The notes below the pieces were generated by a model. The model saw nothing but the letters and a program-made list of their open reading frames with translations, made no database searches and was not told the origin of the DNA. Positions 17,004-44,541 of a stretch of DNA of 44,557 nucleotides are shown here, piece by piece (the stretch's first letter is position 1; the number at the start of each line of letters is the position of its first letter). This stretch comes from a virus. Location of the stretch: the IMG/VR virus record IMGVR_UViG_3300036715_000993, positions 1 to 44,557 of that record, one strand, 5' to 3'. Made by a program: the position numbers and the translations under genes.

Positions 17004-17237
17004 ATGAGAAAAGTTATTATTGCTAGTTCGGCTGTAGATTGGGATAAACTTATTACTAAAGGTACTAAAGTAAAACAAGCTTCTTATGAACATCAATCTT
17101 TTAATCCTTCTGGTGGTACGTTATATATTTGGACAACCACAAAATCTACCGCAGATATTAAAGTAGATATGCCTTTATCTGAGGCTAGAAAGATAGCTAA
17201 GAGATATGGGGTTAAACTTCATGTTCAGACTAGATAA
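17004..17237 (+). CDS. Small unknown protein with leader MRKVIIASS
   Basis: 77 residues, preceded by TAGGAGTATACA and 21 bases after the protease gene. It starts MRKVIIASSAVDWDK, a compact version of the leader with the I-A-S-S step. The rest is a small beta-rich domain ending in a helix (LSEARKIAKRYGVKLHVQTR). Its stop codon TAA is the first three bases of the promoter-like element at 17235. Confidence 0.6.
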   Translation: MRKVIIASSAVDWDKLITKGTKVKQASYEHQSFNPSGGTLYIWTTTKSTADIKVDMPLSEARKIAKRYGVKLHVQTR

Positions 17238-17248
17238 CTGTAAATATA
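17235..17248 (+). promoter_or_regulatory. Promoter-like element TAACTGTAAATATA
   Basis: Same 14-base sequence as at 28569 and close to the TAAAACTGTTAATA elements. It begins with the stop codon of the 17004 gene. TATATT at 17247-17252 may serve as a -10 box. Its gene starts at 17271. Confidence 0.5.
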
Positions 17249-17270
17249 TATTAATAAGGAGTAGTGAAAA

Positions 17271-17753
17271 ATGCAAAAAGTATTAATAGAAATCTGCAAA
17301 GAAGATAAACAAGCAGAGCTGGCTGCTATAAGGATAGCTAAAGCACTGTCTGAAGATAGAGAGCATAATATCGTAGCTCTAGATGACATAACTAATTTAC
17401 GTCTTAAAATAAGAGATCTACAAAGAAAAAATCTTGAATTACAATTTCTAGTTGATAATCCAGATTTTGATGTAGATATGCAGATTTCAAAAGAAAGAGA
17501 TTATTTAGTAAATTCATTCATAAATAATGAATCTATTATGAATTTATATGCTAGATATAGTTATGATTATTTTTCTGATAATTATCATCCTGAGTTTATA
17601 ACTAAACTTTGTACTCTATTATATAACGTTTGCATAGATAAAAAAGCTCAACCAAACCAACTTTGGAGTGATCTTTTAATAACCTCTGGATTTATAACAA
17701 AGGATATAATTTCTAATTATGGTCCAGTAGAAACTGATAAAGGTATAATTTAA
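17271..17753 (+). CDS. Unknown 160-residue protein, first gene of the SNF2 operon
   Basis: Preceded by ATAAGGAGTAGTGAAAA. It opens MQKVLIEICKEDKQAE, then helical segments including a probable coiled coil (DDITNLRLKIRDLQRKNLEL) and an acidic, aromatic second half (MNLYARYSYDYFSDNYHPE). No motif recognised. It is 14 bases upstream of the giant helicase and may be its partner. Confidence 0.6.
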   Translation: MQKVLIEICKEDKQAELAAIRIAKALSEDREHNIVALDDITNLRLKIRDLQRKNLELQFLVDNPDFDVDMQISKERDYLVNSFINNESIMNLYARYSYDYFSDNYHPEFITKLCTLLYNVCIDKKAQPNQLWSDLLITSGFITKDIISNYGPVETDKGII

Positions 17754-17767
17754 ATATAGGAGACATC

Positions 17768-20700
17768 ATGGAAACTTCGCTTAAATTAAAGAATAAAATC
17801 ATCCCTAAACATTTTGCTGAGTTCTCAGCAAAAAGAAGAGATGTTAGTGAAAAGATATTTGATGACGTAAGGGACAAACAACTTCCAGTACCTATTAATA
17901 AGCCAGGTGAGCCATCAAAAGAGTTTAATGATGTACTCTACCGTTGTTTCGTTCCAGAAGAAAAACAAAAACGTAATAAGCGTAATGCAGAACTTAAGAT
18001 TGACATTGATAAAAACTTTGGCTGGGATAAACTGTTTTCAGACTTGTATAAAGTTCTATACACAGTTGAATGTGTCAAGCTAAGACATAAGACTTTGATA
18101 GCTGTTGTATATGATTTAGCTGCTGGTAATATTTGGCTAACTAATAGTTCACCTTTATATGAAGTTTTTGAAAATTTAAAATTGAGTACTAGTATAGTTA
18201 GTAAAGATGAATTTGTAAAACTAGTTAAACATTTAGCAGTAACCCATTATAACTACACAGTATTTAGAAATGCTGTTACTAAAACTGCTTTTGAAGAAGG
18301 AACTTCAACTCAAAGTAAAGACTTTATTACATACATAGATAGAATGAAGAAGTTTATGGCTTCTGATTCTGCTTTTGTTCTGAAGAGAGTCTCAAATGGA
18401 ATTGAGATTATTTGGACTGGTGATGGTGGAGTAGATCAACCTGCTGATATTACTCTTTCAAGTCCAGCTCCTTTTAAATTTATATCTAAAAATGATTTTA
18501 GAGAATATTTAGAGACATCTACTACATATATTCATGGAGAGCATAATAAAGCTATTGTTTTGGAAACATACAATGAACTTTATGATTCTCTATTCGGATA
18601 CCTCTCAAATTTAGTTCCAGGATTATCTTCTAATCTTCATTCAAAAGTAAGAGCTGAGTATGAACTAGATGTTTTATTTCAGCCTAAGGTCGCACCTGCT
18701 TTCTTAGACTATTTAGTACAAGACTTTGATATAATATCCTTGAGTCCTGAGTTTAAGATACAAAGAGGTAAATACATAAAGTTATTAGTTCAAAGATCAT
18801 TCAATAAGGAGTATATTGAAGTAGCTAGAGCCTTAAACTCACAGAAAACAGCGTTAGAATTAAACGATAGAGTAAGATGTTCTATCTTTGATCCAGAGAC
18901 TAATGAGTACAAAGAAGTCGTAGCGCGTATGCGTCCTTGGAGTAGAAATAAAAAGAAATTAAGTATAGATTATTTGGGTGAAGAGTATAAGATATCTGAA
19001 GTAAAAGATTTACGCCTTTATGTAAATGAAAAAATAAATGAGAAATCTAGTCAAGATAAAATGATTCATGCAGCGTTAAATTCTACTCTTCAGTTTTCTA
19101 TTAAGCAATTTATGCCAGAATTTTTTGCTAGAGCTGTAACGCAAACACCTACTGGTAAGATAGGCTTTTCTACTTTAAGAACTTGGATAATGATTTGGCA
19201 AAAATTAAAATTTGCTGGATCAAAAGACTTTAAGCGTGTACCTAAGTACGTGTTACCATATAGTCAACTTGTTAAGAACGAGATGTTTAAGTCTCCAGAA
19301 GACGAAACTGGTGATTCTTCAAGAACAGACTCTACCGGATTAACCATAGATAACAAAGGGCGTTTACTTTATATTCCTAAAATATCAGAAGACTTTCCTT
19401 TAAGATATGAATCAATCTTGGATGAATTGTTAGAAAAATCTTACTCAATTGAAGAGCCTTTTAATATTGATAGAACAACAAGTCAACCTATCTATAAAAT
19501 TAATAAAACAACAGAAGAGATTGAACAGAGAGCTGAAGCAATAGAGAAACTTCGTAAGTTCAGACTTCTTCCACTAGCTGCAAACTGGAATACAAACGTA
19601 GTGTTGTATCCAAATAAGTCTAACTTAAATAGTATGAACTCTATATCATTAGATGGTGCAATGACACCTGATGTAAGAACATTAGCTGATTGGTTAGGAA
19701 TGCCTACCGTAGCAGGTGGTAGATATCCTAATGGTAAATCTGCTTTAAAAGCTTATGGAGAAATCCTTGGTGTAAATAAACCAAGAAATTTTGATGAATT
19801 TTGTAATTATCTAATTCCTGTAGAAGTGTTTTACTATTGGCTGATGCTTAATGGTAAAGTACCAACTTATGAACAACTTCTTGAAAAATCACGTTCAGTA
19901 ATTGCAAGTCTAGATCGTCCTGATATAATTTCTGAGTTAGATACTGAGGAGTCTTATAGGAAAATCTTTTCTGGATCTAATTTTAACCGTAATGATTTAG
20001 GTTATATAAGAGAACCTAAGCCTAATGGCGTAGAGATGCTTAGACATGTATTTGAACTTACTGACAAGTATTCACCTAAAATAAATGCAGTATCAAAATC
20101 ACACGATTTACCAGTAACAGATCATCCCTGTTATTTAGATTTTGATAAGGCTACTTTTACTGGATCGAATAGCATCCAACAGGTTTCATCTGTTATGCTA
20201 GGTGGTGTATTCTGGATGGAACTCTGTAAGAGCATATCTAAATTTATTAATAACCAAAGAGAGCTTGAAGATCTTGCTTTTGATTCAGTTTCAATTGACC
20301 CTGAAGATTTCATGGCTTATATAAACTTTGAAGACTTCTCTAGGTTTATTGTACCTCAAGTTAAGATGTGGTCAAGTTATATAAATAATGCCGATGACAT
20401 CTTATTAGAAGCACACGAATATAAAAAGAGTCTACAAAGAACAGATGGATATGTTCCAGTCATTCCTGGAGTAAAAGAAATTGATCCCAATAATCCTGAT
20501 AAAGGTGGATTTGCATTACAACCTCATCAGGCTGATGTTATGCAGTATAGTGCAAGTCATCCTAAGTACATGATTCTTGATGTAGCTCCTGGCGGTGGTA
20601 AAACGATTTTAGGATTATCTGAAATCTTGGTATACTTATCAGAGGGAAGAATAAAACGTCCTTTAGTTATAGCTCCTATAAACCTGATAAAGAACTGGAT

Positions 20701-23700
20701 AAATGATTGTGTCAATAATCTTCAAGCTCCAGTAAACTTTATAGTTCTAACTAGTGAAACCGTTAATGAATGGGGTAAGGATCATTTAGCTGAGAAGATA
20801 AAAAATGCTCCACCAAATACCATTGTATGCACTAGTTATAACTGGTTATACAATCCATCTGATACCAATATTGTAATGTATGGAATTAAGCCAGTTAAAT
20901 TGTTTGGTAACATAGAATTTTTAAAGCAGTTTGCTTTTGATTACATTGCAGCAGATGAAGCACACCGCTTAAAAAATGCAGGATTATCTTCTGGTAAAAC
21001 TGTAAGAAAACCAACTTCTACTCATTTGTCAGTTCTTAGATTGGTTTCTAGTAAACATGTTAAGTATGTAAGACTTTTAACTGGAACATTGATTAAGAAT
21101 ACATTGTTAGACCTAGTTGGTCAGGTGCGTTTGTTGAATCCAGCTATTTTTAGAACAATAGATGAATTTAAAGCTGAATATGGAGATCCAAACGTAGCAC
21201 TTAATAGTGAGGCAGGACGTTCCGTTCAACAAGAAATGAGAAATTATTTACAAGAATTTGTTACCGTTGTACAAAAGAAGAAACGTCATTGGGCTTTTGT
21301 TATGCCTGAGTTCGAAGATCAATTTGACTTTGTTGATCCGGATGATGCAGCTATAGGATACTATGAATGGGTTCTTGGTAAAACTTTGGAAGAAATTGAA
21401 TCTACTTTAGGTAGTGATTCTAAAAGCTGGAAACTATTAACTGAAGGTGTAAAAATAGAAAAAGAAAATGATGGTGAAAATGATGGTGAAGGAGAAGATG
21501 TAGATTTAGACGATGAAGATGATAGTGAAGAATCATTAGATAGTGATTCAGATACTGAATCCGAGGATAGTGACCCAGGTGAATCAGCCTCTGTTAGAAA
21601 AATAGAGGCTTTGTTGAAACCACATTTATCAAGGTTAGAGCAAGCTCTAACTGATCCTGAAGGTGACCCTGAATTTGAAGAGTTTGAAGAGGCTATGGCA
21701 CGAGAAGGAAGAAAACTAAAACTTAGTCCTTCAAGAAAATTGTTAAAGATTTATGAGTTATTAGATGTTCACTTTGAGGGTAAAGCCTCTTATGTAGATG
21801 GGAGTGGTGAAAAACATGAAGCTGTAGAAGCAATGGGCAAATTAGACAGTATGGATAATAAAGATAAGGTCTTAATTTTCGGTAAGTATCATAGATCGGT
21901 AGATTCTATTTTTAAGCATATGCCTGAGAAGTATAAGAAACACGCTAGGGTGTATAATGCTGGTGTAAAAGAAGCATTAGAAGATTTCTTAACAAGACCT
22001 GACTTAAAGATACTGGTAGCTTTGGAAGATAGTATTCAAGAAGGTCACAATATTCAGATTGCAAGTCGTTTGATTCGTTCAGAACAAGTATGGACTCCTG
22101 GAGAAATGGATCAGGCTGTATCTCGTATTCACCGTCCAGATATTGGTAATAAATATGGACGTACAAAAATTATTCACAACTGGATCATAGTTAATAATAC
22201 TCTTGAAGTAGCAAAACTTGGACGTTTGATTTCTAAATTCGTATCGAAAGCAAAATTTGATGAAGCAGATGTTCGTTATCAAATGCTACCTGATCTTCCA
22301 CCAATTCGTATGAGTCTTAACGTTATTAATGGAAAGCATCCAGATAGTAAAAGAAATTTTAGTGATATAATTCCATATTTGGAAGCCTATGGTATGGATC
22401 CAGAACAAAAAGGTAATATTCGTGGTCTTGCACAATATCAACAAGAGGACTTTGAGTATCAAAGAGTAATGGCAGCTAAAGAAAATAGAGATAAAATGGT
22501 TCCAGTAAAAGCTGCACCAATGATGGAAGGTTCCAAATTTATAAAACAGTTACCGTATGTTATGGGACAGTCAGTATATGATCCAGAAGACTTAGGTTTA
22601 ATTCCATTAAAAGAATATATGGAGATAAATCCTGAATTAAAAGAAGACCCAAAAACATCACTACGTGGGTTGCCTGTACATACCTCTTATGGTGAGGGAA
22701 TAATTCAGTCCGTAAGAGAAATTCGTAAAGGTTTAAAGAAGAAACATAAAGGATCATCTGTTGACGTTTCTGAAGAAACAAATGACAAAAAATCGGTTGT
22801 AGTTGGTTTTACTTTAAAGATAAGACTTGGTAATGGTGGAGAAATTGATGGATATCATTGGACAAAGACATTCGTTATTACCAAGACTTCAGTAAGCATG
22901 AAGAAGCTCTTAAAGAAAGCAAAAGGAGATAAATCTGAAGATGCAAAACCAGTTGAGTCACCAAAGAGTACATTGATTAAAGATAAGTTAAATAAGCTTT
23001 TAAAGAAAAAGAGAATAAAAGATATTATTGATGAACAGGAAGATACTCCAGTAACTACTAAGAAAAAGAAAACAATAATTGAAGAAACACCTACTAAGAA
23101 GAAAACAACTACAATAGAAAAATTACCTTCTGGTAAAAAGCGTACAATAATCGTGGAAGAAGATCAACCTGTTGTAAAACCAAAGATTAAGAAGTCCGAA
23201 GTTCCGTTACTTAAAAAGTTAAAGCCTAAGGCACCTATTGATAAAACTGTTAAAGAGAATAATGCTCCTTTAACTCAACCTAAGTTAGCTGGGAAAAAGG
23301 TTAAGGAAAGTCTTACTCCAACAAAAGACTTTTTAGAAAACAAAAAAATAGAAGTATGGGCAGTTGATAGTAACGGTATACCAACGTTAATGTTATCTCA
23401 CGAAGATCCAGATAGTCAAGTGCTTGCAAAGAAACTGAAGTTTAATTATTTTGGATCTTATATTTTCACCGAGATAAAAACACCTCAAATATTTGAAAGT
23501 GTAGTAAAAGATTTAAAGGCACAAGGCTTCGAGCTTAGCAATAGTACGAAGAAAGTTTTTGATGCAATGTCTGAAACTTTCAGAGGTCAGAAAAATAAGA
23601 TGAGAGCTATGATGCAATTAAAGTTGATAGATAAGCGTCTTTTGTTTGATGTTACTAGAAAACGTGGTAAGTTAAGAAATCCGAATTTATTAAAGATATA

Positions 23701-23956
23701 CCCAATAGTTGAGAATGGCGATATTTTATGTTTATATGTAGATACAAGTCAAAATGATCCTGCAGCAATACGTTTAAGAAATATGAAGAAACTTCCAAAT
23801 GTACCACAAGTTAAATGGAAATCTGTTTCAGGTATATGGGTTTATCAAGGAGTAAATAAAGGATCGTTATTGAAGAAACTAGATGAATTTGCTAAGGTTG
23901 GTCTAACTGTAGAAAATCTTGCTAAGGTTAAGCAGGACATTAACAAACTATTCTAA
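17768..23956 (+). CDS. Giant SNF2-family helicase-like protein with possible HARP-like C-terminal repeats
   Basis: 2062 residues, start preceded by ATAGGAGACATC. About 900 N-terminal residues are unrecognised. The motor follows: LQPHQADVMQYS (Q motif), Walker A GGGKT near 943, DEAH near 1062, LTGTLIKN (motif III), and a C-terminal RecA lobe (KVLIFGKYHRS; EDSIQEGHNIQIASRLI; DQAVSRIHRPD near 1455). A very acidic linker near 1235-1275 lies between the lobes. Residues about 1720-1830 are Lys-rich. Two C-terminal segments, one ending in NVPQVKWKSVSGIWVYQG, fit the pattern of HARP domains of annealing helicases (inference). It may remodel protein-DNA complexes; the role in infection is unknown. Confidence 0.8.
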   Translation: METSLKLKNKIIPKHFAEFSAKRRDVSEKIFDDVRDKQLPVPINKPGEPSKEFNDVLYRCFVPEEKQKRNKRNAELKIDIDKNFGWDKLFSDLYKVLYTVECVKLRHKTLIAVVYDLAAGNIWLTNSSPLYEVFENLKLSTSIVSKDEFVKLVKHLAVTHYNYTVFRNAVTKTAFEEGTSTQSKDFITYIDRMKKFMASDSAFVLKRVSNGIEIIWTGDGGVDQPADITLSSPAPFKFISKNDFREYLETSTTYIHGEHNKAIVLETYNELYDSLFGYLSNLVPGLSSNLHSKVRAEYELDVLFQPKVAPAFLDYLVQDFDIISLSPEFKIQRGKYIKLLVQRSFNKEYIEVARALNSQKTALELNDRVRCSIFDPETNEYKEVVARMRPWSRNKKKLSIDYLGEEYKISEVKDLRLYVNEKINEKSSQDKMIHAALNSTLQFSIKQFMPEFFARAVTQTPTGKIGFSTLRTWIMIWQKLKFAGSKDFKRVPKYVLPYSQLVKNEMFKSPEDETGDSSRTDSTGLTIDNKGRLLYIPKISEDFPLRYESILDELLEKSYSIEEPFNIDRTTSQPIYKINKTTEEIEQRAEAIEKLRKFRLLPLAANWNTNVVLYPNKSNLNSMNSISLDGAMTPDVRTLADWLGMPTVAGGRYPNGKSALKAYGEILGVNKPRNFDEFCNYLIPVEVFYYWLMLNGKVPTYEQLLEKSRSVIASLDRPDIISELDTEESYRKIFSGSNFNRNDLGYIREPKPNGVEMLRHVFELTDKYSPKINAVSKSHDLPVTDHPCYLDFDKATFTGSNSIQQVSSVMLGGVFWMELCKSISKFINNQRELEDLAFDSVSIDPEDFMAYINFEDFSRFIVPQVKMWSSYINNADDILLEAHEYKKSLQRTDGYVPVIPGVKEIDPNNPDKGGFALQPHQADVMQYSASHPKYMILDVAPGGGKTILGLSEILVYLSEGRIKRPLVIAPINLIKNWINDCVNNLQAPVNFIVLTSETVNEWGKDHLAEKIKNAPPNTIVCTSYNWLYNPSDTNIVMYGIKPVKLFGNIEFLKQFAFDYIAADEAHRLKNAGLSSGKTVRKPTSTHLSVLRLVSSKHVKYVRLLTGTLIKNTLLDLVGQVRLLNPAIFRTIDEFKAEYGDPNVALNSEAGRSVQQEMRNYLQEFVTVVQKKKRHWAFVMPEFEDQFDFVDPDDAAIGYYEWVLGKTLEEIESTLGSDSKSWKLLTEGVKIEKENDGENDGEGEDVDLDDEDDSEESLDSDSDTESEDSDPGESASVRKIEALLKPHLSRLEQALTDPEGDPEFEEFEEAMAREGRKLKLSPSRKLLKIYELLDVHFEGKASYVDGSGEKHEAVEAMGKLDSMDNKDKVLIFGKYHRSVDSIFKHMPEKYKKHARVYNAGVKEALEDFLTRPDLKILVALEDSIQEGHNIQIASRLIRSEQVWTPGEMDQAVSRIHRPDIGNKYGRTKIIHNWIIVNNTLEVAKLGRLISKFVSKAKFDEADVRYQMLPDLPPIRMSLNVINGKHPDSKRNFSDIIPYLEAYGMDPEQKGNIRGLAQYQQEDFEYQRVMAAKENRDKMVPVKAAPMMEGSKFIKQLPYVMGQSVYDPEDLGLIPLKEYMEINPELKEDPKTSLRGLPVHTSYGEGIIQSVREIRKGLKKKHKGSSVDVSEETNDKKSVVVGFTLKIRLGNGGEIDGYHWTKTFVITKTSVSMKKLLKKAKGDKSEDAKPVESPKSTLIKDKLNKLLKKKRIKDIIDEQEDTPVTTKKKKTIIEETPTKKKTTTIEKLPSGKKRTIIVEEDQPVVKPKIKKSEVPLLKKLKPKAPIDKTVKENNAPLTQPKLAGKKVKESLTPTKDFLENKKIEVWAVDSNGIPTLMLSHEDPDSQVLAKKLKFNYFGSYIFTEIKTPQIFESVVKDLKAQGFELSNSTKKVFDAMSETFRGQKNKMRAMMQLKLIDKRLLFDVTRKRGKLRNPNLLKIYPIVENGDILCLYVDTSQNDPAAIRLRNMKKLPNVPQVKWKSVSGIWVYQGVNKGSLLKKLDEFAKVGLTVENLAKVKQDINKLF

Positions 23957-23971
23957 AGGAGAAAAAGAAAC

Positions 23972-24355: not shown

Positions 24356-24360
24356 GATAC

Positions 24361-24398
24361 AGAGCCTTGATTCAATAAAGAATCAAGGCTCTCTCTTT
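24361..24398 (+). terminator. Rho-independent terminator
   Basis: A perfect 13-base-pair stem (AGAGCCTTGATTC at 24361-24373 with GAATCAAGGCTCT at 24380-24392) around AATAAA, followed by CTCTTT. It closes the SNF2 operon. Confidence 0.85.
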
Positions 24399-24401
24399 AT
24401 C

Positions 24402-24428
24402 TAAAACTGTTAATAATAATTATAAATA
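24402..24428 (+). promoter_or_regulatory. Promoter-like element TAAAACTGTTAATA before the DNA polymerase gene
   Basis: The 14-base element at 24402-24415 also occurs exactly at 35950 and 44521. It lies directly after the terminator and 59 bases before the polymerase start, with TATAAATA at 24421-24428 downstream as a possible -10 region. Confidence 0.6.
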
Positions 24429-24460
24429 TCTACATATTATTTGTCTATAAGGAGTATTCC

Positions 24461-27421
24461 TTGAAAACAAAACCATTTGATCTAAAAAAGTCTTTTGAAC
24501 AAAGTTATAATATATCTTTACCTATAGTTGAAGATGAGTCCTCATCTAATAGAATATTATTTATCTTTGACAGACCAGATAAAGATGAAGTTGCCTCAAA
24601 AACCTTACTAACAGGTCCGCAAGGTAAATTGCTTATTAATCTTGTAAATAAAGCAAAGTCTACATACATAGTAAAACAGGAAGATAAGCAGTTTAGTTGG
24701 TCTGCTATAAACTTTGTAAATGGACCTATCTCTAAAAATAGAAATGATCAGATGGAGTATTTCTATGAAAGAGTTATGGCCTATATAAAACACTTTAAAC
24801 CAACTTCAATAATCTGCATGAGCATAAAGTTTATGCGGATGTTTTATCCAGAGAAATTTGGTAATAATACTTATGAAATCTATGGAAAGTATTTAGGTTC
24901 TAAAATAAAACATAAAGGTTTATCAGTTTTTCCATCCTTAGATTTATTGGATATAATAAATTCTATAGGTGAAGAAAGTATTGCAGGAGCTTTAGGTCTA
25001 GTTTCTAAATATATTTCAAACGGAATATCTGGACGTATTCAATTTAAAATTGATGAAGAAAGAATAAAGAAGGCTGAGATAAAGATAGTAGACTCATTAG
25101 ATAAGTTTAAAATTTTAATGACCAGGCTTAGTAAAGCTGAAGTTGTATGTATAGATACAGAAACAACTAATTTAAATAAAGTACAGAATAAGCTCTTAAC
25201 AATTCAGTTTTGTTATGACCTAGATGCAGCTTATATACTTCCTATATATCATAAAGATACACCCTTTGACGCATCTGATTTTAAGTACATTCGATCAAAA
25301 TTAAAGGAATTTTTTGAAGGTAGAAATAAAGTAAAATGGTTTGTATATCATAATGCTAACTTTGATCTTAATGTATTACGCTCAAACCTAGATATAGATT
25401 TCTTTCCAAATCCTTTATGGGATACAATAGCTGGGGAATTTGGTCTAGAAGAAAATTTAAAGTATTTAAATAGTGCTCCTGGAATTGATTTTAAACCTTA
25501 CTCATTAGAGGCTGTTTCTATTCGTAGAGGTTTCTATGAATATGGTGCTTCCACAATAGCAAAAAATGAGTCTAAGGATATTGGAAACAAATCATTGTCT
25601 GATCCTTTAGTCCAACGTTATTGCTCCTATGATGTACTAGTTCCTTTTGCTATTCATGAAGTGCAACAGAAAGAAGCTAAGTTTATTAATTATAAAAAGT
25701 ATGTATCTATAGTAACGGAACAAATGTCCGACATGATACATACTTTTAGTACAATGAATAAAAATGGTTTACCTGTAGATATAGAATATCTTATGTATTT
25801 GCACTCAAATGCTTCACCTATCATAAAAGTTCTTAAAGAAATGGAACATGATCTTTATGCGTGTAAAGAAGCAAAGGCTTTAAATACCAAGTTGGTAGCT
25901 GAAGCAAACATTCCAACCCAAGGACTATTTGGTACTACTTCAACGTGGTTATTTGATATACACAAAAGAGAACATAAGACTAGATTCTTTTTTGACATGC
26001 TTGGTTTAAAACCAATAAAGATGGGTAAACCAGATAAGAAAACTGGAAAGTGTGTAGGGAAGGTAGATAAAAGTTTTCAGGAAGCTTACTCTGATGTACC
26101 TATAATAAAGACTTTTACAGAACTTTCAAAAGCAGAAAAACTAAGAGATGCGTTTGTTAAAAGCTTTGTTAAGTTATTAAAGACCTGTCAAGATTTTAAA
26201 ACTGATTTTTCTATTAGACCATATATATCTTTTCAGAGTGTTGTTACTGGTAGAGTTTCAGAGAATAATCCTAACTGCCAACAAATTCCTAGCCGAAGTG
26301 AATTAGGAAAACATATTAAAAGACTTTTTTCTGCACCTCAAGGTTGGCTTTTTATTAAAGTTGACTACTCTGCGCATGAAGTTAGAGGGCTTGCCTTAAT
26401 AAGTGAAGACAATGTACTAGCAGATGTTTTTAGAGTAGGCTATGACTTACGAAAGAAATTCAGAAAATCACCTTCAAAAGATATTATTACTGAGATAGAA
26501 CTTAAAGGTGACGTTCATAAACTAAATGTGGCTTTCTTCTTTGGAGAAGACCTTAAAACAATAGCTAAAGATAAGTTAAAGGATTTGCGTAATGCTATTA
26601 AAGGTGTTGTTTTCGGACTTATCTATGGTAAGGGTGATAAATCTTTATCGAGGGATTTAGGTAAACCAATCGAATTTGTTACTGAGCTTGTAAATAAATT
26701 CTTTAAACGTTTTTCTAAAGGTGGTAAATGGTTGAATGATATTGAGAAACAGGCTCAAGCGAACCACTATGTTGAAAGCCCTTTAGGAAGAAGACGAAAC
26801 TTAACAGCTTATTTACTACCTAAACAACTAGGCGACATTGCTAAAAGTAAATATGCTGCTATGAATAGACGTGCAAGAAACTCACCAATACAAGGTATGG
26901 GTTCAGATTTTGGTTTTATAGCATATAGACGTATAGCAAGAGCTGCATGGAAAAGAAAATTAGAAGTAGGTAAAGAAGTATTGAAAGTATGTAACACAGT
27001 ACATGACTCATTGGAAACATTAGCTTCAATAGATAATCTAATGTTTGCTTTAAAGACTATTGAATATGAAATGACTGAAGGAGTCCAAGAGACTTGTTTA
27101 GAACGACATAACTTTAAATTTTGTGTTCCGCTTGAGATTGATCTTGAAATAGGTCCGAATTTAAGAGACTGTAAACCTTGGGATGGAACAATTCATGAAT
27201 TGTTACGTTTAGTCGCAGAGTCTTTAGCTTTTCAAAAGTATAAAAATAATTATGCAGACATAGAAATAAAGAAAACTTTAAAACATATTATGACCAAGCA
27301 AAGGTCAGATATGCCTAGTTATTTAATACACCAGCTTAAAGCTCTTAAAGAAGAAGATATTGATATAGATCTTATAACTAGCGTAGCTATAAAGAAGATA
27401 AAGGAATCAGAGTATAAATAA
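24461..27421 (+). CDS. Family A DNA polymerase with UDG-like N-terminal domain and 3'-5' exonuclease
   Basis: 986 residues from a TTG start, chosen because TAAGGAGTATTCC stands before it. Residues 25-190 keep the layout of a uracil-DNA-glycosylase fold (FDRPDKDEVASKTLLTGPQG, INFVNGPISKNR, PTSIICMSIKF) but look degenerate; the same architecture is known in SPO1-type polymerases. Exonuclease motifs: CIDTETTN near 231-238, HNANFDLNVLRS, and YCSYDVLVPF. Polymerase: TGRVSENNPNCQQIPSR, motif A VDYSAHE near 634, motif B KGVVFGLIYGKG near 713-724, motif C TVHDSLE near 846-852, where the Glu after the catalytic Asp is Ser. It copies the phage genome with the clamp at 28618. Confidence 0.93.
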   Translation: MKTKPFDLKKSFEQSYNISLPIVEDESSSNRILFIFDRPDKDEVASKTLLTGPQGKLLINLVNKAKSTYIVKQEDKQFSWSAINFVNGPISKNRNDQMEYFYERVMAYIKHFKPTSIICMSIKFMRMFYPEKFGNNTYEIYGKYLGSKIKHKGLSVFPSLDLLDIINSIGEESIAGALGLVSKYISNGISGRIQFKIDEERIKKAEIKIVDSLDKFKILMTRLSKAEVVCIDTETTNLNKVQNKLLTIQFCYDLDAAYILPIYHKDTPFDASDFKYIRSKLKEFFEGRNKVKWFVYHNANFDLNVLRSNLDIDFFPNPLWDTIAGEFGLEENLKYLNSAPGIDFKPYSLEAVSIRRGFYEYGASTIAKNESKDIGNKSLSDPLVQRYCSYDVLVPFAIHEVQQKEAKFINYKKYVSIVTEQMSDMIHTFSTMNKNGLPVDIEYLMYLHSNASPIIKVLKEMEHDLYACKEAKALNTKLVAEANIPTQGLFGTTSTWLFDIHKREHKTRFFFDMLGLKPIKMGKPDKKTGKCVGKVDKSFQEAYSDVPIIKTFTELSKAEKLRDAFVKSFVKLLKTCQDFKTDFSIRPYISFQSVVTGRVSENNPNCQQIPSRSELGKHIKRLFSAPQGWLFIKVDYSAHEVRGLALISEDNVLADVFRVGYDLRKKFRKSPSKDIITEIELKGDVHKLNVAFFFGEDLKTIAKDKLKDLRNAIKGVVFGLIYGKGDKSLSRDLGKPIEFVTELVNKFFKRFSKGGKWLNDIEKQAQANHYVESPLGRRRNLTAYLLPKQLGDIAKSKYAAMNRRARNSPIQGMGSDFGFIAYRRIARAAWKRKLEVGKEVLKVCNTVHDSLETLASIDNLMFALKTIEYEMTEGVQETCLERHNFKFCVPLEIDLEIGPNLRDCKPWDGTIHELLRLVAESLAFQKYKNNYADIEIKKTLKHIMTKQRSDMPSYLIHQLKALKEEDIDIDLITSVAIKKIKESEYK

Positions 27422-27436: not shown

Positions 27437-28117
27437 ATGCTTATTACATTACCAGTAGTTGAGTTATTTTCTTCATTAGAAGGAGAAGGTTTATTTATAG
27501 GAACTCCTACCATATTTCTAAGAACTGCAGGATGTAATGTAGGTTGTAGATACTGTGATAGTAAACAAACATGGGACAAGAAAAACTACTACTCCGAGAG
27601 TATAGATGAGATATGTTATAAGATACGCATTATGTCTAGTATTTTAGGTATAAAACGAATATCTATAACTGGTGGTGAACCATTGCTATATGGAAGTGAG
27701 ATTTTAGCTTTGGTTAAAAAGTTAAAGAAGAAAAATTATATATTTAATCTTGAAACAAGTGGTACTATATTTAATTTTGATGTCTTTGAATTATTTAGTT
27801 CTATATCCTTAGATATTAAAACTCCTTCTAGTGGAGTATTTTTAGACAAAGATATACTCAGAAATTTTAAAGCCACCTTAGACGTTTATTCAGATAAGAT
27901 TTATATAAAGGCTGCAGTATCAACAAAAGATGATTTAGCCTTCGTAGTAAATACTTTAAATCCTAAAAATTTAGCCAACCCGCTTATTTTTACTCCTTGT
28001 GAGATAGAAGGTAAACTTCAAATAACTTCAGAAGAAGTAATTTCTTTTATGAAAGATTATCCAAAATTTAATTGGAGATTCATAGCACAACAACATAAAC
28101 TATTGGATTACAGGTAA
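27437..28117 (+). CDS. queE: QueE, 7-carboxy-7-deazaguanine synthase
   Basis: 226 residues, with AAAGGA before the ATG. A short radical SAM enzyme: it converts 6-carboxytetrahydropterin to 7-carboxy-7-deazaguanine (CDG). The N-terminus has ELFSSLEGEGLFIGTPTIFL, typical of QueE, then the cluster-binding C-x3-C-x2-C (CNVGCRYCD, Cys 33, 37 and 40), and SITGGEPLLY as the SAM-binding step. LDIKTPSSG follows. It works with the FolE and QueD genes further downstream to supply the base used by the DpdA-like enzyme. Confidence 0.92.
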   Translation: MLITLPVVELFSSLEGEGLFIGTPTIFLRTAGCNVGCRYCDSKQTWDKKNYYSESIDEICYKIRIMSSILGIKRISITGGEPLLYGSEILALVKKLKKKNYIFNLETSGTIFNFDVFELFSSISLDIKTPSSGVFLDKDILRNFKATLDVYSDKIYIKAAVSTKDDLAFVVNTLNPKNLANPLIFTPCEIEGKLQITSEEVISFMKDYPKFNWRFIAQQHKLLDYR

Positions 28118-28124: not shown

Positions 28125-28571
28125 ATGGATAGTGTTTTAATTTATACTGATGGTGGTTGTGATAATAATGGTACAAAGATAGGTGGATGGGGTGTATACT
28201 TGATGTATTTGGAACACCGTAAAAAACTTAATGGCGGTCAGAAAGATACAACATCAAACAGGATGGAATTGACTGCCGCTATAAAAGCATTAAAAGCATT
28301 AAAGCATAATAAACTTAAAGTAAAATTGCACTCTGATTCTCAGTATCTTATTAAAGGCATGAATGAATGGCATAAAGCATGGTTAAAGAATAATTGGAAA
28401 AGCTCTACAGGTAAAGACGTAGTTAATAGAGATTTGTGGGAGGCTCTAGTAGCCTTGAATAAAAAGTTTGATATAGAATGGATATGGGTTAGAGGTCACA
28501 ATGGTGATATATGTCAAGAGCAAGCACATACATTAGCAGACGAGGCAATGAGGAAACTGCGAAAGTATTAA
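28125..28571 (+). CDS. rnhA: Ribonuclease HI
   Basis: 148 residues, the usual size. It removes RNA from RNA-DNA hybrids such as replication primers. Catalytic positions visible: Asp 9 in YTDGG, Glu in SNRMELTAA, Asp in LHSDSQYL. The conserved His is in VRGHNGD. The fourth acidic position, normally Asp in a D-x-L-A context (E. coli Asp134), aligns with His in EQAHTLADEA. The ribosome binding site is weak, and the gene follows queE by 7 bases, so coupling is likely. Its stop TAA is part of the promoter-like element at 28569. Confidence 0.9.
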   Translation: MDSVLIYTDGGCDNNGTKIGGWGVYLMYLEHRKKLNGGQKDTTSNRMELTAAIKALKALKHNKLKVKLHSDSQYLIKGMNEWHKAWLKNNWKSSTGKDVVNRDLWEALVALNKKFDIEWIWVRGHNGDICQEQAHTLADEAMRKLRKY

Positions 28572-28590
28572 CTGTAAATATAAATATAAT
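28569..28590 (+). promoter_or_regulatory. Promoter-like element TAACTGTAAATATA before the clamp gene
   Basis: Identical to the 17235 element and begins with the RNase H stop codon. TATAAT at 28585-28590 is a good -10 candidate. The clamp gene starts at 28618. Confidence 0.55.
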
Positions 28591-34147: not shown

Positions 34148-34148
34148 C

Positions 34149-35314: not shown

Positions 35315-35328
35315 AGAGGTATAGAAAA

Positions 35329-35952
35329 ATGGAAGTTACAAAATTATTTAACTTTTGTTGTGCTCATTCTGTAAAGGACGCATACACATCTAGATGTGAT
35401 AGAGAACGAGGAGGAATACATGGGCATAACTATGTTGTAGAAGTTACTTTAACCGGAGTCATAAAACCTGATGGTATGGTTATTGATTTTACCAAATTAA
35501 AAGAACGCTTTAATTATATAATAGATTCTTTTGATCATACTTTTGTTATAAATATAGAAGATAAAGTTCTGTCTATTCTAGGACCATATTTATCTTGTCG
35601 TAGTATTTTATTCTATTCTAATCCAACTGCTGAGAATATGGCTCAGTACTTTTATGACTATTTATTTTTTAGTTTATTGAATAGTACACCTGAAATTGGA
35701 GTTAAAAAAGTTACCGTATGGGAAACACCAACTAGCTTTGCTACTTGTATATCTAACATCAACTATGTTAGAGAGAATATACCTAAATTAAGTTTAAGTG
35801 AAGAAATAGTTAAAACTTGGACTGAAGAACAACGTGAAGAATTTTATTTCAACAATGGAAATATACATAAAGTAGAGAAAGTTATATCTAAAATAGAGCA
35901 AGTTACAGATGCCTTAAACGTGGAAAATACTATTCGGTTACATTTTGCATAA
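35329..35952 (+). CDS. queD: QueD, 6-carboxytetrahydropterin synthase
   Basis: 207 residues, longer than the usual ~120 because of a C-terminal extension. It makes 6-carboxytetrahydropterin from dihydroneopterin triphosphate for QueE. Motifs: FNFCCAHS with zinc His 13, IHGHNYVVEVTLTG with zinc His 31 and 33, PDGMVIDFTKLKERF, and SFDHTFV with the catalytic His. The nearest upstream Cys (23) is seven residues before His 31, whereas E. coli QueD has three between; the canonical Cys position holds Arg. VTVWETPTSFATC supplies the substrate-binding Glu. GAAGAGG precedes the ATG. The stop overlaps the promoter-like element. Confidence 0.88.
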   Translation: MEVTKLFNFCCAHSVKDAYTSRCDRERGGIHGHNYVVEVTLTGVIKPDGMVIDFTKLKERFNYIIDSFDHTFVINIEDKVLSILGPYLSCRSILFYSNPTAENMAQYFYDYLFFSLLNSTPEIGVKKVTVWETPTSFATCISNINYVRENIPKLSLSEEIVKTWTEEQREEFYFNNGNIHKVEKVISKIEQVTDALNVENTIRLHFA

Positions 35953-35970
35953 AACTGTTAATATTATATT
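35950..35970 (+). promoter_or_regulatory. Promoter-like element TAAAACTGTTAATA before the helicase gene
   Basis: Exact copy of the 24402 and 44521 element. Its first three bases are the queD stop codon. TATATT at 35965-35970 may be the -10. The helicase gene starts 83 bases downstream. Confidence 0.6.
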
Positions 35971-35978
35971 AATATATG

Positions 35979-35994
35979 CATGATTTTTATCATG
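35979..35994 (+). promoter_or_regulatory. Small hairpin in the helicase 5' leader
   Basis: CATGAT and ATCATG pair around TTTT (6 bp). It lies between the promoter-like element and the helicase ATG. No T-run follows. Perhaps an mRNA 5' stabilising hairpin; could be incidental. Confidence 0.3.
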
Positions 35995-36032
35995 AGATTT
36001 TATATCTACACTTTATTGAAACGGTGTGAATT

Positions 36033-37385
36033 ATGCAATTATTCTCTGCTGAATTAGAGCTAAGGACACTAGCTCAGATTTGCAATTCGACACAGGACCT
36101 AGGTGTGTCTTATCTGTTATCTAGGTTGAATGAAGATCATTTTCATTATGAGCCAGTTAAAACTGCGTATAAACGAATTGTAAAGTTAATACAATCTAAA
36201 GGTGAAGTTCCAAGTTATCATGAACTTGAGGTTGATCCTGTATTAGATGAAGACTTTAGAGCGATATTATCAGCAAACGTAGATAAGAAAAAACGTTTAA
36301 AAGACGAAGCAAAAGCAAAAGCAAGTTTTGAGATTCTTGAAAACTTCCGAAAAATACGAATGTTGTACCACATGTCTAAGTCTGCTATAGAAAATCTTAA
36401 AAAACCTTCCGTAGATGTAGATAAGATTTTACAGTCTATGGGAGACTCACTAGCTGTAGCTAGATCTACAGTTCAGCACCAAGATCAGCTTGTACATATC
36501 GGATTAAATAATAATAGTTCTAAGATAGTAAAAGACGTTTTATATGGTGAACATGCTCCTACTATTCCGACAGGATTTAAGACTTTCGATGAAAAGAATG
36601 GTGGGTTTTTTAAACCTGCGGTAGCAATATTGTCTTCAAATTCTAGTGGTGGTAAATCTGTAGGTGCACTTCAAATGGCAGTAAATATGTATTGGACTAA
36701 GCATAGTACCTGTATACTATCTTTGGAAATGAGTAAAGAACAATACATGGCTAGATTTTTATCAAATATCTCTGGAGTAAATGCTTCTAAGATTTTCTTA
36801 AAAACAACTACAAAACAAGAACGACAAAAAATAAAAGATGCTTATAAGAAATTTGTTCTTTTTGGAAAAGAGAATAATGTAAGATGGACTATTTTAGCTC
36901 CAGATACAGGTATGTCATTTGACCAATTATTGATGACTGCAAAACCTTATGGTTATGACGTTATAACAGTAGACTATATTTCTCTCTTAGAGGAAGCAGA
37001 TACTGATAATCAAGCAAGAGCATTGGCCTCAATTACTCGTAAAGCAAAAGTGTTTAGTCAATCAGCTAATTGTCTTATGATTCTTTTGGCTCAGTTGAAT
37101 GAAGAAGGCTTAATAAAGTATTCAAGAGCTATAAAAGAAAATGCCGATCATGTTTGGACATGGACGTATGGAGATACTGAAAGAGAAACGCACTTGATTA
37201 CAATGCGAGTTGATAAAGGTAGAAACCAGTTATGCTTTCCTTTTGAAGTTCAAGAAGACTATTCTACCATGAGACTTATTGATAATGGACCAGTCAAAAA
37301 CTTTGATGATTCCTCTTCATCATCCTCATCTTCATCCTACTCATCAGATGATGCAAATGATTATTTAAAAGAAGACGATTTGTAG
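36033..37385 (+). CDS. DnaB-like replicative DNA helicase
   Basis: 450 residues. It unwinds the replication fork together with the primase at 39469. An N-terminal helical domain (LELRTLAQICNS ... HYEPVKTAYKRIV) resembles DnaB-N. The RecA-like core has GFKTFDEKNGGF, Walker A SNSSGGKSVG near 203-211, LSLEMSKEQYMARF, DVITVDYISLL (Walker B), MILLAQLN and TMRVDKGRNQ (DnaB motif 4 region). The tail is DD followed by a run of nine Ser, then an acidic end (DANDYLKEDDL). It starts the operon downstream of the 35950 promoter-like element. Confidence 0.9.
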   Translation: MQLFSAELELRTLAQICNSTQDLGVSYLLSRLNEDHFHYEPVKTAYKRIVKLIQSKGEVPSYHELEVDPVLDEDFRAILSANVDKKKRLKDEAKAKASFEILENFRKIRMLYHMSKSAIENLKKPSVDVDKILQSMGDSLAVARSTVQHQDQLVHIGLNNNSSKIVKDVLYGEHAPTIPTGFKTFDEKNGGFFKPAVAILSSNSSGGKSVGALQMAVNMYWTKHSTCILSLEMSKEQYMARFLSNISGVNASKIFLKTTTKQERQKIKDAYKKFVLFGKENNVRWTILAPDTGMSFDQLLMTAKPYGYDVITVDYISLLEEADTDNQARALASITRKAKVFSQSANCLMILLAQLNEEGLIKYSRAIKENADHVWTWTYGDTERETHLITMRVDKGRNQLCFPFEVQEDYSTMRLIDNGPVKNFDDSSSSSSSSSYSSDDANDYLKEDDL

Positions 37386-37394
37386 GAGTACTTT

Positions 37395-38213
37395 ATGTCT
37401 ACTAAGTTAAAAAATAAAGATATAGAATCACCTTTTGGCGATGTTCAAGTAGAAGACTTGATACGTTTACCAAAATCTGCTAGGAAGAAAGCTATAGTAA
37501 AGGCCAAGCTGATTAAATTAGCCAATAAGAAAAAAGAAAAATCAGAAGTTGTATATCTTCCAGAAAAGATAACATCTGATACACCGAAAAGATCTAAATT
37601 AACTCGTCTTCCAAAAGAAGCTGAGAATATTAAATCTAAACTAGATAATATCATAAAAGTTCCTAAAGACCAATTGGATACTTTTATGAAAAGTTTTAAT
37701 ACTTCTAGTAAATTCATATCTTCTGAATTTTTGAAGAATATCGCTCCAGTATTTTTATCTTTTGAAGATGCTATGAACTATAGCACTGTAGCATTAAGAG
37801 ATGGTCTATCTTATGATGGAGAGATAGACTTAGAACTAATGCCAATATTGGAGTGGGCTGCAAGATTAGCAACATTGGATGTATTTATGTCTAAATTAAA
37901 AATGACTGAATCTTTAAAAACGAGATTTTTAAATCTTTGTGTAAATAGAATAGTAGAAAAAGCATTTACTATAAAATATACTCCTAGTTATAGTGTTAGA
38001 GGTTCAGATACTAAGATAGCAGGTATAGTAAAATCTTTAGATACTACTAAAAGGAACAAGACTCAAGATAATTCACGACAGAGCAATACTGTTAATAATA
38101 AACAACAGCAACAATATTATCAGCCTCCTCAACAGCAACAACAAACTACTAAGCATGATTTCTCTATTCTACCTAATTCACCAGGTTTCATTCTAAAAAA
38201 GAAAAAGTTATGA
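37395..38213 (+). CDS. Unknown protein with Gln-rich C-terminus
   Basis: 272 residues, ATG after TAGGAGTACTTT. The N-terminal ~80 residues are basic, with LPKSARKKAIVKAKLIKLAN. The middle is helical (MPILEWAARLATLDVFMSKL), and the end is a Gln-rich low-complexity stretch (KQQQQYYQPPQQQQQ) followed by PNSPGFILKKKKL. Placed directly after the DnaB-like helicase, it may be its loader or a primosome partner, but I recognise no domain. Confidence 0.65.
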   Translation: MSTKLKNKDIESPFGDVQVEDLIRLPKSARKKAIVKAKLIKLANKKKEKSEVVYLPEKITSDTPKRSKLTRLPKEAENIKSKLDNIIKVPKDQLDTFMKSFNTSSKFISSEFLKNIAPVFLSFEDAMNYSTVALRDGLSYDGEIDLELMPILEWAARLATLDVFMSKLKMTESLKTRFLNLCVNRIVEKAFTIKYTPSYSVRGSDTKIAGIVKSLDTTKRNKTQDNSRQSNTVNNKQQQQYYQPPQQQQQTTKHDFSILPNSPGFILKKKKL

Positions 38214-39392: not shown

Positions 39393-39421
39393 AATAGTAT
39401 TACTAGATTATTCTACACAAT

Positions 39422-39450
39422 AAAGGGGAGTACACACTCCCCTTTGTTTT
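39422..39450 (+). terminator. Rho-independent terminator
   Basis: A perfect 10-base-pair stem (AAAGGGGAGT at 39422-39431 with ACTCCCCTTT at 39436-39445), loop ACAC, then GTTTT. It separates the helicase gene group from the primase gene group. Confidence 0.85.
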
Positions 39451-39468
39451 AATAAAACAGGTATCGCT

Positions 39469-41422: not shown

Positions 41423-41431
41423 GGGTGATAT

Positions 41432-43015
41432 ATGTATTCTTTTGTTCCAGCAGCAGTAAACTATCTTGATAAACATGGTATTGGAATCTATATAAAGTAT
41501 ACTAAAAGTGGTAATGATAAGATAGTAGTAAAAGAAGATAATATTAGATATACATGGATAAAGACTCCAGACAGAGAATTAATTCTAGTAAAGAATAGAG
41601 ATTTAATTTTTCATCCGATGGGTGAAAACTTTGATGAGTATGTAGATTTAAACATCTACAGTGAAGCTGTAACCTCAGCTATCGGAACAGATATTTATAT
41701 GCTTAACTATACTGCATATGGAGCTGACTCTGATGTGTCACCTTGTGCAAGACGTAATGGGAGAAATCCTAATATTGAGCAGCCTTATATACTTGCAGAC
41801 TCTGGTGGGTTTCAAGTGTATAGTGGAGTAAGAGATTATATTGATCCCAAAGCTGTAGTAGAGTGGTATAATGAAAATGTCGATTGGGGAATGGTATTGG
41901 ATATACCACCCATATTTTTTGATGCAGAATATTTAGATAGAAGTGCTAATATTCAAAAAGCAAACATAAAAGTGATGTTAGAGAATAAAGCTCCTAATGT
42001 AGAACTTATAAATGTTATTCATGGTAGAACTTATGATCAACGTATGGAGTTTCTGAAGAAAATAGATACACCAGATATAGATAGGGTTGCATTTGGTGGA
42101 TACAGAGGTTCTGTAGTTAGTTGTACTGCCGACGCTTTACAAATTTTTAGTGGAAAGAGAAAATTCAAGCATTATCACATTCTAGGTGTATATAACCTTT
42201 TAAAACTAATTCCAATTATTAAAATGGCTAATACTAAGATGCTTAAAAAGACTTTGATAACTTCGGATGCTACCACACCAATACAAAGTGCAGTAAATAA
42301 GATGTATCATCATCAGCAAAGTATTTTTGAACCTGCTAAGAGAATACCTATTGGACATAAGATAGCAGTGTATAATCCGTATACCTATCTACCATGTCAA
42401 TGTCCAGTATGCTCCTCAATAAAGTACCTTAACATTCTTGGATTCTTAGATGGTCAGTTAGCTGCATCTTTGATTAGTTTACATAATATCTATGAGATAA
42501 ATAGATATACTAAGATGATGGAGGATTTAGCTAAAAATGCAGATGATAAAGAATACAAGACTATAGTAAAACATCAGTTAAAGTCACGAGCTTCAGAAAC
42601 TTTAGCTGCATTAGATTTAATATCAGCTTATATTGATAATCCAGACAAAGCTTTGAAAAAATATTCTCTATACTTTACTAAAACTAAAGGTCTTTTTGAA
42701 GGTGTTCCTGTAGCTAAAACTGATAAGTCTAAAGCTAAAGCAGAACAAACAATCACAGCTATAGCAGAAGCAAAAGGATTATTCAAACGAGAAAACTTAA
42801 GTTGTGCCTTAAACTCAGATTTAGCACAAGATGCAAATCTTTTTGTTAATAAAAGAGAGGAAGTATCAGAAGAACAAACTCAAGATCGTTATGATAAGAT
42901 GTTAGAGAAATACGAAAAAGTGCATGGTATAAAAGTAAATGAGAGTTTGCGTTCAGGCAAAACACAAAAAGACACTAGAAAGAAACAACTAAAAAGAGCA
43001 TCTAAAACTAAATAG
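41432..43015 (+). CDS. dpdA: DpdA-like tRNA-guanine-transglycosylase-family DNA modification enzyme
   Basis: 527 residues. Members exchange guanine in DNA for a 7-deazaguanine base. TGT-type motifs: ILADSGGFQVYSG near 121-132, GMVLDIPPIFFD with the conserved Asp near 155, VIHGRTYDQRM, RVAFGGYRGS, HYHILGVYNLL. The TGT zinc site is C-Q-C-P-V-C at about 322-327, with a following His near 349. The C-terminal ~120 residues are basic. The presence of FolE, QueD and QueE supports a DNA rather than tRNA role, because phages with DpdA carry these genes together. GGGGTG precedes the ATG. Confidence 0.85.
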   Translation: MYSFVPAAVNYLDKHGIGIYIKYTKSGNDKIVVKEDNIRYTWIKTPDRELILVKNRDLIFHPMGENFDEYVDLNIYSEAVTSAIGTDIYMLNYTAYGADSDVSPCARRNGRNPNIEQPYILADSGGFQVYSGVRDYIDPKAVVEWYNENVDWGMVLDIPPIFFDAEYLDRSANIQKANIKVMLENKAPNVELINVIHGRTYDQRMEFLKKIDTPDIDRVAFGGYRGSVVSCTADALQIFSGKRKFKHYHILGVYNLLKLIPIIKMANTKMLKKTLITSDATTPIQSAVNKMYHHQQSIFEPAKRIPIGHKIAVYNPYTYLPCQCPVCSSIKYLNILGFLDGQLAASLISLHNIYEINRYTKMMEDLAKNADDKEYKTIVKHQLKSRASETLAALDLISAYIDNPDKALKKYSLYFTKTKGLFEGVPVAKTDKSKAKAEQTITAIAEAKGLFKRENLSCALNSDLAQDANLFVNKREEVSEEQTQDRYDKMLEKYEKVHGIKVNESLRSGKTQKDTRKKQLKRASKTK

Positions 43016-43033
43016 AATGAGGAGGATATATCA

Positions 43034-43474
43034 ATGGCTCCTGTAATTAAGAAGCAAGGCTTACTATTAAAAAAGATGTTAGATGAATCGCTTATAATTG
43101 ATTTGAATAATTCAAAACAAGTTAAACTATCAAACATAAAATTTACGGTTTCAGCAAAAGGCAGGAAAGCTGTTTTGGCTACTTGTCAAACTGTAACTGA
43201 AGATAAGGCCGGAAATGTAAAGATGGGTGATAAACATAAATGTTCTATAATAGGTTTAGAAAACGATGGACTGTTATCTAAACAACGGTGCATGGTATCC
43301 TGTTCTTGCTCTAGATTCTTGTATTACTTTGAAGTTGCGTTGGCTGCAAAAGGTGCGGCGAAGATAAAGTATTCGGATGGTAGTCCACCACATGTAACTA
43401 ATCCCAATATGATTACAGGAATGTGTAAACACCTAATAGCTTTATCAAAGTATCTTATAAAGAATAAACAATGA
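43034..43474 (+). CDS. SWIM-type zinc-finger protein
   Basis: 146 residues, preceded by GAGGAGGATATATCA. A beta domain is followed by CMVSCSCSRF (Cys near 90-92) and, about 40 residues later, GMCKHLIAL (C-K-H near 132-134). C-x-C...C-x-H is the SWIM finger signature used for DNA or protein binding. The spacing is longer than usual. The gene overlaps the sigma-factor gene by ATGA, so the two are probably made together and may act together in late transcription (inference). Confidence 0.7.
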   Translation: MAPVIKKQGLLLKKMLDESLIIDLNNSKQVKLSNIKFTVSAKGRKAVLATCQTVTEDKAGNVKMGDKHKCSIIGLENDGLLSKQRCMVSCSCSRFLYYFEVALAAKGAAKIKYSDGSPPHVTNPNMITGMCKHLIALSKYLIKNKQ

Positions 43475-44523
43475 TAAAACCGTTTGTAACTAATAAGATA
43501 AATATTTCGCTAACTGGTCATCAGATAGCTAAAATATTTGATTCTATTACTAATCAAATTTTGTATTCTTTGAACTTGTATACTAATGTATTAGAATCTA
43601 ATATAATTAATTTAATTAGTTGGGTATCTAATAATAGAAGAAAAAAGATAAGTTCTTTAAATAGAGAACTTCAATTGCAGTATCTTTTCTATTATTTATT
43701 TACCTTTGATTCTAATGAGCGATATACTGTTTTAAGGAAGCTTAAACTAGATAGATTTTATGTAAGGAAATTAGCTACCGTATTTATACAGTGTAGTGCT
43801 AATTACGAGGAACTATATAAAAAATATCTGACAGGTAGTATAACTGAGGAGGAGTTATTACAGTTATCTATGTTAGAACATAGATGCCAATGCTCTAGGG
43901 AGTATTTATATCCTCTGATCGTTAATCTTAAGGATTATCTAAAAGTTTATAAAGAAATTACTGATTTGATTATAAGTAAGTATTATAAATTTTTATATAC
44001 ATTGGTAATGAAAAGAATACATGGAACTACTCGTCATTTTGATGCAGAAGATTTATATCAAAATTATATAGGTGCTGCTCTTAAAGCATTAGACAGATAT
44101 GATCCTGATAAAGGTGCATTAACCTCATATATTCAGTTATGGATAAAAAATAATCAACAAAGTGCTGAAGAGAATCCTGAATATGGTATAGCATACGAGT
44201 TACCAACTATTCAAATTGCAAAAAACGTAAGGGAAGATTCATATAATCCAACTAATATACATGAAGATAACTTCTCAGTGTCATTAGAAACTTTGTTGGA
44301 AGAAGGAGAACTGTCTGAAGATACGTTAGGTATAGATACTTATAATCCAGATAAAATAAAGGAAGAGAAAGATAAAGCTCAAGTTTTGTTATATCTAGCT
44401 AAGGAAGCAGACCCAACTGGAGTAGCAAGATTATCATTAGGAATAGACGAGTATGTAGACATGGATATGAAAAAGCTCATGATTAAAAATATGCAAATGC
44501 AAAATTTTAACTGTTCAAACTAA
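43471..44523 (+). CDS. RNA polymerase sigma factor (gp55/sigma-70 region 2-like)
   Basis: 350 residues. The first ~160 residues are unrecognised helical sequence. From about 165 to 245 comes a sigma region 2: YYKFLYTLVMKRIHG, FDAEDLYQNYIGAALKALDR and KGALTSYIQLWIKNNQQS. This core-binding and -10-recognising domain is that of T4 gp55-type late sigma factors. No clear region 4 follows; instead there is an acidic tail (LLEEGELSEDTLGID). It probably redirects host RNA polymerase to phage promoters. Its stop TAA opens the promoter-like element at 44521. Confidence 0.78.
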   Translation: MIKPFVTNKINISLTGHQIAKIFDSITNQILYSLNLYTNVLESNIINLISWVSNNRRKKISSLNRELQLQYLFYYLFTFDSNERYTVLRKLKLDRFYVRKLATVFIQCSANYEELYKKYLTGSITEEELLQLSMLEHRCQCSREYLYPLIVNLKDYLKVYKEITDLIISKYYKFLYTLVMKRIHGTTRHFDAEDLYQNYIGAALKALDRYDPDKGALTSYIQLWIKNNQQSAEENPEYGIAYELPTIQIAKNVREDSYNPTNIHEDNFSVSLETLLEEGELSEDTLGIDTYNPDKIKEEKDKAQVLLYLAKEADPTGVARLSLGIDEYVDMDMKKLMIKNMQMQNFNCSN

Positions 44524-44541
44524 AACTGTTAATACTAAAAT
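44521..44541 (+). promoter_or_regulatory. Promoter-like element TAAAACTGTTAATA at the right edge
   Basis: Third exact copy of the element, beginning with the sigma-factor stop codon. TAAAAT at 44536-44541 may be a -10. CAAAGGA follows near 44545, so a gene should begin just beyond the window. Confidence 0.55.

Follow-up and report, generated by a model that had tools for sequence, protein, structure and literature searches.

Middle and late promoters of phage T4 and a predicted promoter of phage Lu11 are the described systems compared here. MotA-dependent T4 middle promoters serve replication genes, and the MotA boxes sit near −30, paired with a sigma-70 −10 element. T4 late RNA starts at a YR step located 6 nt after TATAAATA. 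The late promoters (TATAAATA; gp55/gp33/gp45) have no −35 element (PMC2988020). Most jumbo phages have no RNA polymerase of their own and are thought to redirect that of the host by means of phage sigma factors (PMC13282480). In the Lu11 record (GenBank JQ768459) the word studied in this work is marked as 'putative middle/late promoter'. All 11 annotated 16-mers that we inspected start with CTGTAAAT, and eight of them end with GTA, the patch containing the inferred start. Many copies are left unmarked in the same record, and it says nothing about geometry, conservation, a reader or a second class.

The window analyzed here, 44,557 bp of a genome with 32% GC, is an entire IMG/VR contig. Its terminase is 45% identical to that of phage NCTB and 43% to that of PaBG, its sigma factor is 32% identical to that of HRDY3 and 33% to Lu11_0170 of Lu11, and the nearest relative found is G001 (294,944 bp; portal identity 72%). 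These identities mark the window as a piece of a jumbo phage genome of the Lu11/PaBG/NCTB type; phages of this type form the 'Lupandier' group of PMC7412058. It should be mentioned that a 2062-aa protein of unknown function (17768-23956), with orthologs in seven of the seven large relatives compared, is encoded just upstream of the DNA polymerase gene. The window also contains genes for QueE-like (27437-28117), GTP cyclohydrolase (30194-30865) and QueD-like (35329-35952) proteins and a distant TGT-domain protein (41432-43015, with a TGT match just under the Pfam cutoff), a set which points to 7-deazaguanine modification, of either phage DNA or tRNA.

The sequence-only reading of the window reported a promoter-like box in five exact copies (17235, 24402, 28569, 35950 and 44521), and we found all of them at these positions and on the gene strand. 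The copies, referred to as box 1, have the sequence CTGTAAATA or CTGTTAATA. They and the associated features are as follows.

17234-17246, + strand: box 1, core ACTGTAAATA at 17237-17246, before ORF 17271-17753 and overlapping the stop of ORF 17004-17237
24361-24392, + strand: hairpin, an intrinsic-terminator-like site directly upstream of the next box (−21.5 kcal/mol, z −6.8)
24402-24415, + strand: box 1 TAAAACTGTTAATA, before the DNA polymerase ORF 24461-27421
24461-27421, + strand: DNA polymerase gene (phrog_17, E 1e-107)
28568-28580, + strand: box 1 TTAACTGTAAATA, before the sliding clamp ORF 28618-29745
28618-29745, + strand: DNA polymerase processivity factor, the sliding clamp (phrog_947, E 1e-15)
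35950-35963, + strand: box 1 TAAAACTGTTAATA, before the DnaB-like helicase ORF 36033-37385
36033-37385, + strand: DnaB-like replicative helicase (phrog_19, E 1e-48)
38088-38097, + strand: exact copy of the core, ACTGTTAATA, that lies within ORF 37395-38213 and is probably due to chance
43471-44523, + strand: phage sigma-70-family factor with region 2 (phrog_17569, E 1e-58; Sigma70_r2, E 1.5e-9)
44521-44534, + strand: box 1 TAAAACTGTTAATA, directly after the sigma gene; the downstream gene, cut by the contig end, is expected from synteny to be ssb

Where the downstream gene is complete, the distance from the box start to the start codon is 36, 59, 49 and 83 nt (boxes at 17235, 24402, 28569 and 35950, respectively). 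The window boxes thus share the layout of the Lu11 annotations, a sense-strand CTGTAAAT word shortly before a gene, at 36-83 nt from the starts. As had been noticed, the TAA of the box is the stop codon of the upstream gene in four cases (ORFs 17004-17237, 28125-28571, 35329-35952 and 43471-44523), and the morphogenesis half contains no exact copy (0 in 1-17 kb). The core ACTGTWAATA occurs six times on the + strand and never on the − strand, while 200 dinucleotide shuffles of the window gave a mean of 0.44 and a maximum of three on the + strand. The signal weakens once mismatches are allowed: TAAAACTGTTAATA with up to three mismatches was found 47 times vs 29 expected, and ACTGTWAATA with one mismatch was at chance level (17 vs 19 expected). 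The window by itself holds a real but small signal; strong support comes from the relatives.

In nine Lu11/PaBG/NCTB-type genomes the consensus of box 1 is wAA[A/T]CTGTAAATA; its first position is A in Pseudomonas-type sites and T in the majority of Erwinia/Dickeya sites. A box scattered through coding regions at equal density had been named as the result that would speak against a promoter; the density per 10 kb is 4.39 in gene leaders, 0.32 in sense coding DNA (a 14-fold difference) and 0.16 in antisense. ACTGTWAATA greatly exceeded its reversed control in G001 (25 vs 1), Lu11 (29 vs 0) and HRDY3 (17 vs 0) and was above it in seven further sigma-bearing records, some of these counts being small (2-3 vs 0). 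PaBG has no exact ACTGTWAATA and carries ACTGTAAA. In T4, whose base composition is roughly similar, the counts were 2 vs 3 in the control, and box 1 was absent from the leaders. An unbiased count of 8-mers in leaders, performed without prior knowledge of the box, ranked CTGTAAA words first or nearly first on the sense strand in G001, Lu11, NCTB, HRDY3, JA13 and Alexandra, with a weaker signal in PaBG. The same count on T4 leaders returned terminator-like loops and GTTTAC words, which we take to be T4 early promoters.

The location of box 1 is also conserved. Among reciprocal-best ortholog groups, 56 ortholog pairs share the box, compared with a mean of 9.6 and a maximum of 26 in 1000 permutations. 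Aligned leaders revealed it before the genes for DNA polymerase, sliding clamp, ssb, primase and phrog_20094; in particular, it precedes orthologous polymerase genes in G001, HRDY3, PaBG and Alexandra and the clamp gene in G001, NCTB and, as the variant TCTGTAAA, JA13. All five window sites are found at matching G001 junctions (e.g., the 17234 box at 276139 and the 35950 box at 5748, after the QueD-like gene) despite diverged flanks, with the W base swapping between A and T. In many IMG/VR lineages the box stands directly after the sigma stop as TAAAACTGTAAA, TAACTGTAAA or TAATACTGTAAA; it is missing there in several lineages, PaBG included. Some other orthologs are also without the box (e.g., ssb in PaBG), partly as a result of start-calling errors. 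The primase orthologs of Lu11, NCTB, JA13 and Alexandra have box 1; the window primase gene is preceded, without box 1, by a strong hairpin with a T-run (39419-39448; −20.2 kcal/mol, z −4.8). Box-1 genes of known role belong mostly to replication and nucleotide metabolism, a baseplate-hub relative being the exception, and the majority of box-1 genes have no known function.

The upstream stop codon, almost always TAA, overlaps or abuts box 1 at 41 of 125 sites, where 4.0 would be expected. This overlap is partly mechanical, because the box contains TAA and an ORF entering in that frame must end. With its internal TAA and A-rich left side, box 1 would often serve in these compact genomes as the end of the upstream gene as well. 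Together with the excess in leaders, the fusions bear out the proposal of a phage-specific promoter-like box at transcription boundaries, and it is almost certain that box 1 is a phage-specific signal for the start of transcription.

The geometry of the box was studied in 123 pooled sites. Information around the core spans positions −2 to 9, with neither a −35-like element upstream nor a conserved element at −10 distance downstream. A YR step is located 7 nt after the last A of the box in 57% of these sites vs about 23% elsewhere, as a single isolated step; the same test on T4 late promoters gave a YR step 6 nt after TATAAATA in 43%. The Shine-Dalgarno sequence begins less than 20 nt from box 1 in 38% of sites, from the T4 late −10 element in 88% and from the T4 GTTTAC word in 0% (minimum 37 nt). 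Judged by the Shine-Dalgarno distances and the YR step, box 1 is best taken as −10-like. The predicted start of transcription lies about 7 nt past its last A. Individual start positions are approximate, because a YR step lies exactly at the predicted +1 in only two of the five window sites (cores 17237 and 24406). The −10 element that had been expected downstream of the box, in a −35-like layout, gives way to a box with −10 geometry of its own.

Our preferred reading, to which we assign a probability of about 0.7, is that box 1 represents the −10 element of a phage-specific, −35-less, middle-type promoter class, probably read by a phage sigma factor. It would mainly drive the genes for polymerase, clamp, ssb, helicase, primase, topoisomerase and thymidylate synthase; 'middle' is the label for the majority of box-1 genes, and the Lu11 authors wrote 'middle/late'. 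The sequences show motif, conservation, strand, position, geometry and sigma anatomy; start sites, timing and reader are inferred.

The likeliest reader would be the core RNA polymerase of the host together with the phage sigma factor encoded by ORF 43471-44523. This factor keeps region 2, the part used for core binding and −10 recognition: its Sigma70_r2 match scores 37.9 bits vs a cutoff of 24, PDB profile matches (including SigA) align region 2, and the AlphaFold model (pLDDT 80.6) matches E. coli sigma-70 (Foldseek sigma70 E 6e-4). Region 4.2, the part that recognises the −35, was not found, with no Sigma70_r4 match up to E 0.1; the PDB alignments do not extend past region 2, apart from a weak 3.2-like stretch at most. 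In the family alignment the C-terminus is short, and what follows the SLD... stretch can be read as a region 3.2 that leads into a truncated end. Comparison of T4 gp55 with a profile of 25 sigma sequences (hhalign) gave a probability of 0.2%, a value with which very divergent homology is compatible. A single-sequence sigma query returned no match in IMG/VR, and a query with the sigma alignment returned 52 loci. The role of this sigma factor as the box-1 reader is plausible, and it is only through co-occurrence that the factor is tied to box 1 rather than to box 2 (see below). A small protein encoded directly upstream of the sigma gene (43034-43474) is conserved in G001, HRDY3, JA13 and NCTB. 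It shows a CxC...CxH (SWIM-like) pattern by eye and no Pfam match, and is possibly a co-regulator.

Alternatively, host sigma-70 could read the box as a strong extended −10 element, making a phage sigma factor unnecessary. Aligned on the inferred start, the box presents CTG followed by TAAATA at −12 to −7, and the TG before the −10 resembles an extended −10 element. However, TAAATA agrees with TATAAT at only three of six positions, and the G adjoins the hexamer, whereas in TGn one base lies between. Moreover, the word is family-specific, being absent from T4 leaders, and is kept in phages of widely different hosts (Pseudomonas, Erwinia and Dickeya). We consider reading by host sigma-70 unlikely.

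Much less probable is that the box is a −35-like element or a MotA-like activator site at about −30 with an AT-rich −10 element downstream. The DNA after the box is indeed AT-rich, as the sequence-only reading had pointed out, but in a genome of 32% GC this proved to be AT-richness only: one sigma-70-like pairing, at 28568, scores 9/12, while such pairs are at chance level overall (85 in the window vs 102 in shuffles). In the 38% of sites with a Shine-Dalgarno sequence less than 20 nt from the box, that sequence would be lost from the mRNA, and the −35-like T4 control never has one so near. This geometry and the missing second element led us to drop the −35/activator reading. Least probable of all is that the box works at the RNA level, where it would be a processing site or an element of the leader: it is a sense-strand leader word with many copies at junctions within collinear gene runs, but the leader tested at 28575 has no structure, the YR start step agrees with promoter geometry, and terminator-like sequence directly before several boxes (T-rich in the relatives) means that a new start is needed there.

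Besides box 1, a second word, NTAATTTA (box 2), is over-represented in leaders, and the relatives with higher GC show this most clearly. In 64% of 83 pooled sites a YR step lies 6 nt past the final A of box 2, and the word is common to 30 ortholog pairs vs 5.4 expected (permutation maximum 16). Box 2 precedes the tail sheath genes of Lu11, HRDY3, PaBG and G001 and genes for PAAR proteins and a virion structural protein, as well as endonucleases and many unknown genes. It seems to be a second −10-like box marking virion genes, and a split between replication genes (box 1) and virion genes (box 2) is a candidate drawn from small, hand-picked gene sets. The absence of box 1 from the morphogenesis half of the window fits such a division of labour. 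In the stretches of the Lu11 record that were read, the box-2 sites before the tail sheath and two other genes bear no promoter annotation. The window itself contains one weak candidate in addition to a position near 3782, and neither is above background:

15051-15069, + strand: weak box 2 candidate CTAATTTA, in the gap before ORF 15129-16202; alone not significant

The PaBG authors weakly suggested gp112 as a second sigma-like protein (PMC7412058). Members of the gp112 family (PaBG L062:17635-18768, Lu11 L031:42299-43408 and G001 L042:15918-17045) share about 20% identity between the more distant phages and are encoded near the DnaB helicase gene in PaBG and Lu11; the Lu11 ortholog of gp112 is Lu11_0178. 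Searches of gp112 against Pfam and PDB sequences gave no sigma match, its model is poor (pLDDT 61) and without a fold match, and comparing its profile with that of the sigma family gave an alignment over region 2, though without significance. The gp112 family is possibly a second divergent sigma. A two-class −10-only code unrelated to that of T4, in which box 1 would serve replication genes and box 2 virion genes, each with its own sigma-like reader (PaBG gp118 and gp112 families) on the host core polymerase, is a tentative and rather doubtful extension.

Compared with the known systems, box 1 resembles the T4 late promoter in having a single −10 element, no −35, a start 6-7 nt downstream (predicted for box 1) and a putative sigma partner without a −35 domain. 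It differs in the word itself (TGTAAATA and not TATAAATA), in the conserved AA[A/T]C on its left, in the longer leaders, in preceding replication instead of virion genes and in a sigma without detectable gp55 similarity. Box 1 is like MotA middle promoters in serving replication genes, but it lies itself at −10, in place of a box near −30 paired with a downstream sigma-70 −10 element. As far as we have searched, the box is annotated in the Lu11 record only. A phage literature search for CTGTAAATA, whose scope did not include the Lu11 genome paper, found no relevant publication, and the passages found in the PaBG and Dickeya papers contain no description of it. Box 1 is thus a real promoter-like class predicted once before, in the Lu11 record. 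Beyond that record, this work adds the family-wide conservation, the start-site geometry, the bias to replication genes, the link to a sigma without detectable region 4.2 and the candidate second box.

A −10-only class recognisable by eye, together with a conserved sigma without a detectable −35-binding domain, makes the question testable in cultured Lu11 and PaBG. The box lets operons be called in uncultured relatives, and box 2 is a candidate explanation for the separate timing of replication and virion genes.
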